A stretch of 41,857 bases of DNA from positions 1-41,857 of the forward strand of contig CAMMLS010000006.1 of the NCBI GenBank assembly GCA_946497775.1, given 5' to 3'. The notes under the pieces were generated by a model. The model saw only the letters and a program-made list of their open reading frames with translations, made no database searches and had not been told where the DNA came from. A program made the translations under genes and the position numbers. This document shows, one piece after another, positions 24,115 to 38,915 of this stretch. How positions within the stretch are numbered: the first letter of the stretch is position 1; each line of letters opens with the position of its first letter. Source of the DNA: an uncultured Clostridium sp. (GTDB lineage: Bacteria; Bacillota; Clostridia; TANB77; CAG-508).

Positions 24115-24258
24115 TAAAGAATAACCTCCTTTTCTTACTGTACTAAGTATATTATTTTATGGTGTAGATGTCAATAAGAAATGACCATGAAGTTTAAATC
24201 ATAAATTGTGTTTAAATAAGGAATTATAGAACGTAGGAGATATTTATGAAAAAAAGTG

Positions 24259-24287
24259 TAGACAAATGTTGATTAATTTTATATAAT
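24259..24287 (+). promoter_or_regulatory. Leader cassette A promoter
   Basis: TAGACA, 17-nt spacer, TATAAT; same arrangement in cassette B. Confidence 0.75.
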
Positions 24288-24325
24288 GAAATTATCGAAA
24301 AAACAAAAGAAAGAGGTTGCTTAGG

Positions 24326-24379
24326 ATGAATAGAAACGCTGTAAGCCTTGCGGTTGTACACACACACACACACAGGTAG
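24326..24379 (+). CDS. Leader peptide A, MNRNAVSLAVVHTHTHR*
   Basis: Upstream agaaagaggt SD-like sequence; homologous to leader B; (CA)n tract encodes His-Thr repeats. Confidence 0.5.
   Translation: MNRNAVSLAVVHTHTHR
24358..24374 (+). repeat. (AC)8A microsatellite in leader peptide A
   Basis: acacacacacacacaca followed by gg. Confidence 0.95.
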
Positions 24380-24419
24380 TATATTAGAGAAAATAAATAG
24401 GAGAAATATATAGATTAGT

Positions 24420-24470
24420 AAGACATATAAGACTTAGCTTTGTGGCTAGGTCTGTATGTCTTTTTGTTTT
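24420..24470 (+). terminator. Intrinsic terminator/attenuator of cassette A
   Basis: aagacatataagacttagc tttgtg gctaggtctgtatgtctttttgtttt. Confidence 0.75.
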
Positions 24471-24479
24471 GGCTTTTTT

Positions 24480-24717
24480 GTAGAGTAGTTTTTTAGGGGG
24501 AGATGTTTTAAAAAGAGCCGCCGAAAAGATAGATATATTAAAATTTATTTCGCTCCTAGGAACACCTTCCAGGCTCGACAAACTCTAAGCCCAATTTTTC
24601 GAGCCTCTCCGAAGCCTTCGCACCCTCAAAAAATTTGGCTAAGAGTTTGTACGACCCTTACAGGCACACGTCGTCGCTACATAAATTTTAATATATCTAT
24701 CTTTTCGGCTACTCTAC
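24480..24717. repeat. Long hairpin / inverted-repeat element A
   Basis: 27-nt perfect arms ccgaaaagatagatatattaaaattta (24521-24547) / 24682-24708; outer gtagagtag (24480-24488) / ctactctac (24709-24717); GC-richer loop with nested inverted repeats. Confidence 0.85.
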
Positions 24718-24740
24718 GAATTTAAATTGTAGCAATATTT

Positions 24741-25412
24741 ATTTTATAGGAGGATATGTAACAAATTACACAACACCAAATGGAGATCCAGATGTAAAAT
24801 GGAGGATATTTTATGCAGATGATAGTAACATTTATTTGATAGCAGATGATTATATACATTATAATTATGCACCAAAATCAGACAAATTGAATATAAATCG
24901 GTAATCTTGGTAATTATAGTGTATCATTAGAAAATGTATATGTTGATTATAATGGAGCAAGTAATATAACAGATTTAAGAATAACTAAATGGTTAAGTTA
25001 TGTTAGTGATAACCAAAATGCAGAAGGAGAAGCAATTCAGTCAGTAGCATATATGTTAGATATACCAATATGGAGTGAAAAATATTCAAATGATAAATAT
25101 GCAGAATATGCAATAGGGGGACCAACACTAGATTTATATTGTGCATCATACAAAAATACGAATCCAGATAACTATCTGGAATATAGTTATAACAAAACTG
25201 GGTATAACGTAAAATTGAGCGCAAATAATATTCCAATTGTTACAATAAATGATAGAGATAATTTATATTATATAACAGATACAAATAAAGCATATACAAT
25301 GTGGATTGCTTCACCACATGCCTTGGATAAATCCGTGATGAGTGTATTATATTATGGTGAAATAAGTGGATCCACATATAGATCATACTTAGGGTTTAGA
25401 CCTGTGCCTTGA
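24741..25412 (+). pseudogene. 5'-truncated surface-protein remnant with CGG +1 shift at 24899
   Basis: YVTNYTTPNGDPDVKWRIFYADDSNIYLIADDYIHYNYAPKSDKLNIN-(CGGT)-NLGNYSVSLENVYVDYN...IWSEKYSNDKYAEYAIGGPTLDLYC...RSYLGFRPVP; no prepilin-like N-terminus or credible start codon after the SD. Confidence 0.65.
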
Positions 25413-36537: not shown

Positions 36538-36566
36538 TAGACAAATGCGTAGTAATCGTATATAAT
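36538..36566 (+). promoter_or_regulatory. Leader cassette B promoter
   Basis: TAGACA, 17-nt spacer, TATAAT, identical arrangement to cassette A. Confidence 0.75.
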
Positions 36567-36605: not shown

Positions 36606-36668
36606 ATGATGAAGATAAACGCTGAAAGCCTTGTGGTTGTACACACACACACACACACAGTTTATTAG
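36606..36668 (+). CDS. Leader peptide B, MMKINAESLVVVHTHTHTVY*
   Basis: Aligned with leader A (NAxSLxVVHTHTH); SD-like agaaagaggt upstream. Confidence 0.5.
   Translation: MMKINAESLVVVHTHTHTVY
36641..36659 (+). repeat. (AC)9A microsatellite in leader peptide B
   Basis: acacacacacacacacaca followed by g. Confidence 0.95.
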
Positions 36669-36701
36669 TGAAAATAAAAAGAATGAATATATAGATTAGT
36701 A

Positions 36702-36750
36702 AAGACATATAAGACTTAGTTTGTACTAGGTCTATGTGTCTTTTTGTTTT
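36702..36750 (+). terminator. Intrinsic terminator/attenuator of cassette B
   Basis: aagacatataagacttag tttgta ctaggtctatgtgtctttttgtttt. Confidence 0.75.
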
Positions 36751-36768
36751 GTTTTTTTAGGGTAGCCG

Positions 36769-36889
36769 TCCAAATAGATTAATATATATTATTTTTTGCC
36801 TCTACAAAGGCTCTGTGGGCTTATGCGTACGACGTACAACTTCCTCGGACTGCAAAATAATATATATTAATCTATTTGGACTACTCTAC
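36769..36889. repeat. Long hairpin / inverted-repeat element B
   Basis: 26-nt perfect arms tccaaatagattaatatatattattt (36769-36794) / 36855-36880, followed by ctactctac as in element A. Confidence 0.85.
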
Positions 36890-36934
36890 AATGATGGATT
36901 TAGCAATATTTATTTTATATAGGAGGAATATGTT

Positions 36935-38915
36935 GTGAGAATAGATAAGGGAATAACTTTGATAGCTTTGATAATAACAATTATTGTAATGTTAATTTTA
37001 GCTGGTGTTGCGCTTTCTACATTGACAGGTGAAGGGAGTATTATACAAAATGCGGAAACAGCAGTGGGAGAGTATAATAATAAGGTTATAAATGAACAAG
37101 AAACATTAAATGAGATAATTGAATATATAAAAAATGATGGAAATATAGATATAGAAGAGAGTGGAATAAGCATAAGCGCTACTCCTGATACAACGGGGAT
37201 TACGAAATCAGTAATAGTAACAGTAGTAGGAAAGGCAGAAGACGGAATAAAAAGTTTTACATCAACAGCAGGAGATAGTAAAACATATGAAGATGGAAGA
37301 ACAGAAATAATAGAGACATGTAATATAATAGAAAATGGGATATATTTATTTACAATAGAAGATATTAATGGAAAAACAGCAAGTACGGGAATATCGATAG
37401 AGAATATACTAGAAGGAACAATACAAATGCAAGCAGATAAAACAATGCCAACAAAGGATAATGTAATAGTAACAGTAACATGGCCAAGTGGAAGTGAAAA
37501 AGGGGTGCAAGAGATAAAAGTAGGTAATAATAATTGGCAAGTAGCAAGTGGGAATACAACTCGAGTAGAAGTAGAAGAAAATTGTACAGTGGTGGCAAGA
37601 GTAAGCAATAGCACAGGAGAAGTGACACAAGCAAGTATAACAATAAGTATTATAGATAAATTACCACCAAAAGTAACTGTGGCAAATGGAGGAACAGAAA
37701 CAATAACAGAAGGAGACAGTAAAGAAATAAGTAGTTACTTTAATTATTCTGCAAATGGAACCGCAGAAATCACATCAGTAATATATACAGATACAAGTGA
37801 TGGAAATAAAGTAGTTACAAATACAAATACATTATCAGTAGGAACCCATATAATCAAATGTACAGTAACAAAAGAAACAGGATTATCTAACTCAGCAACA
37901 AAGACAATAGTAGTAGAAAAAAGTGGGCCACCAGTAGATGAAGACGGACTAGCTACTGAAAATGTAACAATAAAACCAGACCCAGATAGTGATTTACAAA
38001 TAACAATCCCAGCAGGATCTGCCCCAGCAATCCTAGCCACAGGAACTTTGCAAAGTGGACCAGGAGAAGATGGAAGTGTAGCAAGTATTATGCCAGCTAA
38101 TGAGTGGAATAATATAACAACAGAAGATATAAATAAAGGAATAGTAATAGTAGATCATGCTATAACATATACGGAAGATGTACCAGATTTTAATGAGTTT
38201 GTTTGGGTACCAATACCAGATATGAGTAAATTTAAAAGGGTTGATTGGTTTAATTATTCTACCGATGAAGTATTATTAACTAATAAAGCAGAAGAAAATT
38301 CTTTTTGGGAAGATAATACCACAGTAGAATATATAAACATGCTAGATAGTGTAGAATACTATAAAGGGTTTTATATTGGACGCTATGAAACTACTGGTGA
38401 TGAGAATGGAAATATTCAAAGTAAACGAAAGTATGAGGGAGGAGGTTCCCGGTATATGTAGTATATATAAAAATATTATGCATACGATTTATGGGATAGA
38501 ATGGGATAGTACATTAAATTGGCTAATTGGAAATGCAATAATATCATCAGTAGAAGCCGGAAAAACAAAAATAATGGATAGAGATGATATAGATCTTGTC
38601 AGCTGGAATTGGGGAAATTATGAGTTTTCCGAAGGAGATGCCGCAATAGGTAGTGGGACACTTCAAGTAACAGGATATAGCGAATATTGGAAAGCAAATA
38701 ATATATATGATTTAGCAGGCAATTGGCCAGAAGAAACACAGGAAAAGTATTCCACGGGAGGCTTTTTTAACCTTAGGGGCGGAGGTTGCTTTGGTGATTT
38801 TTCTTTTGGAGTAGCTGATCGTTGGATATATCATAATGAAGATCTATTTAAGATTCCAGGTATAGGTTCACGTATTAGCTTTTATATCACACTGGACTCT
38901 GGTAGCGATGCATAA
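36935..38915 (+). CDS. Prepilin-like N-terminus surface protein with SUMF1/FGE-like C-terminal region, frame interrupted at CGG 38450
   Basis: GTG start; KGITLIALIITIIVMLILAGVALSTLTGEGSI; skipping one C joins EGGGS-GICSIYKNIMHTIYGIEWDSTLNWLIGNA to WKANNIYDLAGN...FFNLRGGGCFGDFSFG. Confidence 0.85.

Follow-up and report, generated by a model that had tools for sequence, protein, structure and literature searches.

Amino-acid attenuators such as the his, thr and trp leaders combine a leader peptide with an intrinsic terminator and take the level of charged tRNA as their signal. In the pyrBI attenuator of Escherichia coli, a ribosome that translates up to the terminator prevents the hairpin from forming, and this coupling is set by the level of UTP. 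Slipped-strand phase variation acting on translation is known from genes of the Neisseria opa and Haemophilus lic type, and the NgoAV-type phase-variable type I restriction specificity genes carry a repeat between their two specificity domains. The closest described system is that of Streptococcus gallolyticus, in which phase variation through GCAGA repeats in a leader peptide was demonstrated experimentally for the pil1 locus by comparing strains that differ in repeat number, by mutating the start codon and ribosome-binding site, and by deleting the terminator (Danne et al. 2014, PMC3894217). A leader stop at least 28 nt 5' of the terminator gave mixed, mostly low expression, and a stop 4 nt before or within the terminator gave high expression (PMC3894217). 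The same work compared the pil1 mechanism with the trp attenuator and described two pilus loci with a repeat-controlled leader, pil1 and pil3 (PMC3894217). S. gallolyticus is the sole precedent that we found in the literature for an attenuator set by the repeat length of its leader.

The stretch of DNA analyzed here (the window; 41,857 nt) is contig 6 of a 1.46-Mb assembled genome of an uncultured Clostridium sp. It contains two copies, A and B, of a leader cassette in which a promoter, a Shine-Dalgarno sequence, a short open reading frame (ORF), and a strong terminator follow one another, as the first-pass annotation of this DNA had described. Each cassette is, very probably, a slipped-strand (phase-variable) attenuator set by the length of an (AC)n tract. 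The promoter would drive a short leader ORF that contains the tract. In two of the three frames the ribosome would meet a stop within about 4 to 25 nt of the end of the AC run, in most cases at a distance of about 30 nt or more 5' of the terminator, and after such an early stop the intrinsic terminator would fold and the downstream gene would be OFF. In the third frame the ribosome would reach the edge of the terminator or cross its 5' arm; the hairpin would then be blocked, and RNA polymerase would read through into the surface-protein gene, which would be ON. Replication slippage, by adding or removing AC units, would flip the state randomly and heritably, and independently at dozens of copies. 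In these steps, expression, slippage rate, and read-through are what we infer from the DNA.

Copy A begins with a promoter-like site on the forward strand (TAGACA-N17-TATAAT; 24259..24287, +) in the form common to 35 of the 39 copies of this genome and its congener G002. A Shine-Dalgarno sequence (24310-24316) and the leader ORF follow, the latter encoding MNRNAVSLAVVHTHTHR* as assembled (24326..24379, +), an OFF frame with a stop-to-terminator gap of 40 nt. Within it lies the (AC)8 tract (24358..24373, +), the proposed frame switch. The ON-frame continuation, ...ILEKINRRNI* (24375..24413, +), is out of frame at n=8 and has its stop at 24411-24413, 6 nt 5' of the terminator. The terminator hairpin, followed by a T run (24420..24462, +), has a folding energy of −24.3 kcal/mol (z −7.0), which was matched by 0 of 200 shuffles. 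Copy B has the same order on the same strand: a promoter-like TAGACA-N17-TATAAT site (36538..36566, +), a leader ORF that reads MMKINAESLVVVHTHTHTVY* as assembled (36606..36668, +; OFF frame, stop-to-terminator gap 33 nt), an (AC)9 tract (36641..36658, +), an ON-frame continuation ...LLVKIKRMNI* (36660..36694, +) with its stop at 36692-36694, about 7 nt 5' of the terminator, and an intrinsic terminator hairpin (36701..36743, +; −21.5 kcal/mol, z −7.2). With n=8 and n=9, copies A and B would both be OFF as assembled.

Between attenuator and gene, each copy carries an inserted imperfect palindrome outside the switch, of about 200 bp in copy A (family 1; 24512..24716, +) and about 130 bp in copy B (family 2; 36762..36890, +), with near-perfect stems that differ in sequence. 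The long hairpin had been listed as a component of the cassette. It is indeed present in both copies, but the two belong to different families, both of which also occur away from leaders, and several leader copies are without any; as optional, dispersed inserts the palindromes were ruled out as components of the switch. Between terminator and gene, about 20 copies of the genus share a conserved block, GGTTAGTAGTTTT...ATATGATAAGATA; the block GGTTAGTAGTTTTTGAGAATAATATGATAAGATA, present there in L009, L016, L026, L023, and about 16 more copies and missing from copies A and B, has a core that is matched exactly 13 times in the genome. This conserved block could act as a second promoter that bypasses the switch. 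In copy A, TAGCAATATTTATTTTATAGGAGG comes after the palindrome, and further downstream lies a pseudogene (24750..25412, +), the C-terminal part of a surface protein that is 5' truncated and frameshifted. The AGGAGG noted earlier as preceding a surface-type gene exists, but at copy A it sits inside this remnant (GG of GGYVTNYTTPNG...) and therefore does not serve any intact gene as its ribosome-binding site. The putative target of copy B is a prepilin-like surface protein (MRIDKGITLIALIITIIVMLILAGVAL...; 36935..38915, +), apparently frameshifted near position 38440. Between 38400 and 38480 a 508-amino-acid ORF ends and another frame continues to 38915, which is either a real frameshift or an assembly error.

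The cassette had first been taken as a two-copy element, a count that the genome corrects. Copy A's 500 bp gave 45 BLAST matches in the 1.46-Mb assembly, of which about 26 are leader copies, and G002 has at least 20 leader matches. The TAGACA and TATAAT elements are spaced by exactly 17 nt in 35/39 leader copies of the genome and its congener; with this fixed spacing and the 45 matches, the leader cassettes are not a product of chance. Contigs 10, 19, 24, 33, 36, 37, 59, and others end at or near repeats of leaders and surface genes. Since so many contig ends fall at leader repeats, the real copy number is probably higher. Among 292 genomes of the same Clostridia order, 48 carried the exact tract motif, with up to 32 matches per genome; they represent 21 of 45 genera. 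A reversed control pattern had no matches in the 292 genomes, and the exact motif was absent from 398 sampled genomes of the phylum outside the order.

The HTHTHT stretch of the leader peptide is encoded by a pure (AC)n microsatellite in which n ranges from 3 to 27. The tract lies inside a leader ORF with an in-frame ATG upstream, at a distance of 21, 27, 30, or 33 nt in the window's genome and always in frame, which would let a translating ribosome enter the AC run. The length of the AC unit is not a multiple of 3, and the frame in which the ribosome would leave is set by n mod 3. Among near-identical copy pairs, n differs in 7 of 9, e.g., n=10 and n=19 with flanks that are 98 to 99% identical, and the ortholog-like loci L027 and L208 are one dinucleotide apart and differ in state. 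In the window's genome n=8 predominates and most copies are OFF. These values come from an assembled consensus (a metagenome-assembled genome), in which tract variation within the population is invisible.

In the window's own genus, two frames close a short way past the tract, and the remaining one continues as ...[IL]LxKIxRxNI*. No copy among the 39 from the genome and G002 interrupts this third frame, the proposed ON frame, which closes with TAG or TAA 3 to 10 nt 5' of the hairpin, before it and not inside it; OFF stops in the same 39 copies mostly lie 30 to 44 nt away. Across 38 aligned copies (genome and G002), the entropy sums of the ON frame were 2.1, 3.0, and 7.4 bits for the first, second, and third codon positions, i.e., variation falls mostly on the third position, though few copies are currently in that frame (L004, L009, L027, L021, and the start-less L024 in the own genome; L213 in the congener).

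A wider set of loci was picked solely by the tract and the sequence upstream of it, and 89 of these loci, in 23 sequence families, have a strong terminator. One frame was open through the whole 5' arm of the hairpin at 82 of the 89 loci and in 20 of the 23 independent families, compared with 15.0±3.2 loci and 3.4 families when the spacers were shuffled by dinucleotides. At 85/89 loci exactly one frame reached the terminator with the other two closed at least 10 nt earlier (shuffles, 36.8±4.3). Over the scanned region, stops in the ON frame numbered 14 in total, and the other frames averaged 4.5 each. In this set the ON frame usually ends in the loop or the 3' arm of the hairpin, and 22 of the 89 loci are in the ON state as assembled. 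Two other locus families showed no period-3 signal in the ON frame (with just 6 and 4 sequences), which suggests that openness is kept there and not the peptide sequence. This lack of periodicity, the possible bypass by a second promoter, the prevalence of n=8 and of OFF copies in the window's genome, and the position of the genus's ON stop before the hairpin all weigh against the switch.

The genome search for leaders and their downstream genes that the first-pass annotation had called for found a prepilin motif of the GITLIALIIT type after 17 of the 22 copies with enough downstream sequence, and after 11 of 11 such copies in the congener. Its idea of attenuation or phase variation for prepilin-like proteins is thereby strengthened, in a form that joins the two. 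A motif scan of the wider set placed 55 leader loci and 16 fused loci before or in prepilin-like proteins; other downstream products were LPXTG/Big_2 proteins, dockerin proteins, a glycosyltransferase, and a polysaccharide biosynthesis enzyme. Judged by position 5' of prepilin-like and other surface genes, surface or pilus-type genes are probably under control of the leaders. At nine or more loci without a strong terminator, the tract is fused in frame to a prepilin-like gene (L086, L089, L107, L111, L123, L133, L145, L148, and L196), and at L110 and L156 a terminator lies inside the fused frame. In four prophage-like regions (L079, L125, L165, and L199) the ON-frame stop and the start codon of the following gene overlap (ATGA type). 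The gene after the tract matches a tail-fiber family at L079 and L125, with an endolysin downstream at L079, and it is possible that phage receptor binding is phase variable through (AC)n at these four loci. In an intact hsdS gene (L075:3146-4336, −), the two specificity domains lie on either side of (AC)16, which has a leader-type CTTGAGGCTGT flank. These independent settings (fusions, prophage genes, and hsdS) support frame switching as the common function. Directly visible in the DNA are the parts, the way in which the frames follow from n, the period-3 pattern that the genus shows in its ON frame, the differences in n between near-identical copies, and the in-frame fusions.

A leader rich in His and Thr followed by a terminator is also what classical amino-acid attenuation would produce, with scarce charged His or Thr tRNA stalling the ribosome on HTHTHT and favoring an antiterminator, and the supply of these amino acids had been suggested as the signal. 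The codons are better understood as a by-product of (AC)n, since their number varies between about 2 and about 18 and differs even among near-identical copies, where a regulatory codon number should be stable, and it is the open frame that is kept rather than the His/Thr content. The downstream genes examined include surface, cell-envelope, phage, and restriction genes and no His or Thr biosynthetic gene, and the tract also occurs inside hsdS and before prophage tail-fiber genes. The pairing of the AC tract with the 3' arm of the terminator, which was considered as an antiterminator, is unconserved, with RURU variants alternating in the alignment of the arm. Amino-acid attenuation, which also leaves unexplained why exactly one frame reaches the terminator, is in our judgment highly improbable. 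It is somewhat less improbable, though still quite unlikely, that the cassettes represent ordinary translational phase variation by direct fusion, with the leader-terminator loci being decayed fusions and the terminator incidental. True in-frame fusions do exist, two of them with a terminator inside the fused frame. However, loci that pair a leader with a terminator are the majority, and their ON frame stays free of stops right through the 5' arm and in most cases closes in the loop or 3' arm. Within the genus, the ON frame also has the signature of coding sequence, even though the bulk of the copies are OFF.

The sequence just 5' of the tract raises a different alternative, namely, that the leader works as a structured RNA or as a DNA or RNA element bound by protein and that the ORF is a coincidence. 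Over the 24 nt preceding the tract, in 39 copies from the own genome and G002 and in 131 other loci, the first and third codon positions are conserved and the second is variable, giving the skeleton RNA RNN SNT RNA ANC CTT GNG GNT. This is the opposite of protein-coding constraint, and what is conserved there is thus not the peptide sequence. The leader had no Rfam match above the gathering score, however, and two candidate mini-hairpins (AGCC/GGCU and GCU/AGC) showed no convincing covariation: it did not exceed that of shuffles in the genus, and one was marginal (0.019) in the wider set. A coincidental ORF would also have to account for the distance from ATG to tract, which is in frame at each of its four values, and for the rule of one open frame downstream, and we regard it, too, as highly improbable. 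Such an element may exist in addition to the switch, not instead of it.

A broader and tentative reading, to which we give a minor share of our confidence, is that a portable phase-switch module, RNARNNSNTRNAANCCTTGNGGNTGT(AC)n, is copied among unrelated genes of one Clostridia order and that its nucleotide skeleton, free at the second codon position, is recognized by some factor, e.g., one that promotes slippage or copying. This module would serve in leader attenuators and in-frame fusions, in the translational coupling that precedes prophage tail-fiber genes, and in the hsdS linker. As for the phase-variable attenuator itself, our results suggest that each genome in a large group of uncultured gut Clostridia carries dozens of surface genes that switch randomly and independently of one another. 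The count of AC units would predict ON or OFF from DNA, so that within-host phase variation could be measured directly in metagenomes. The attenuator would generalize a mechanism whose described cases, as far as we found, are two pilus loci of one streptococcus, and would extend it to prophage tail-fiber and restriction specificity genes.

The cassettes resemble pil1 and pil3 in having a tandem repeat in the leader ORF whose number sets the frame, an OFF stop well 5' of an intrinsic terminator, an ON stop just before or inside it, and pilus or surface genes downstream, with control inferred here from sequence and proven there; the stop spacings in the Clostridia fall on the same two sides as those of S. 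gallolyticus. The label "undescribed" given to the system earlier was therefore too strong, as the same logic has been shown experimentally for the GCAGA repeats of pil1 and pil3. The repeat unit differs, however (AC, 2 nt, versus GCAGA, 5 nt), and the leader sequences are unrelated, so the cassette resembles pil1 in its mode of action without being homologous to it. Unlike the two pilus loci of S. gallolyticus, up to 32 exact-motif matches per genome are spread across an order, and unlike pil1 and pil3, the targets are prepilin-like proteins, with direct fusion, translational coupling to phage genes, and hsdS as further outputs. As in the his, thr, and trp attenuators, the position of the ribosome would decide termination, but the signal would be a heritable, random repeat length, and as in pyrBI, translation up to the terminator would block it, but with the reading frame and not UTP setting the coupling. 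The directly fused (AC)n loci would work like opa and lic, whereas most loci differ in using a separate leader and terminator, and the hsdS of L075 is like NgoAV in the position of its repeat and differs by its AC tract with a leader-type flanking motif. The proposed dinucleotide, multicopy, order-wide form of the pil1-type mechanism is new.
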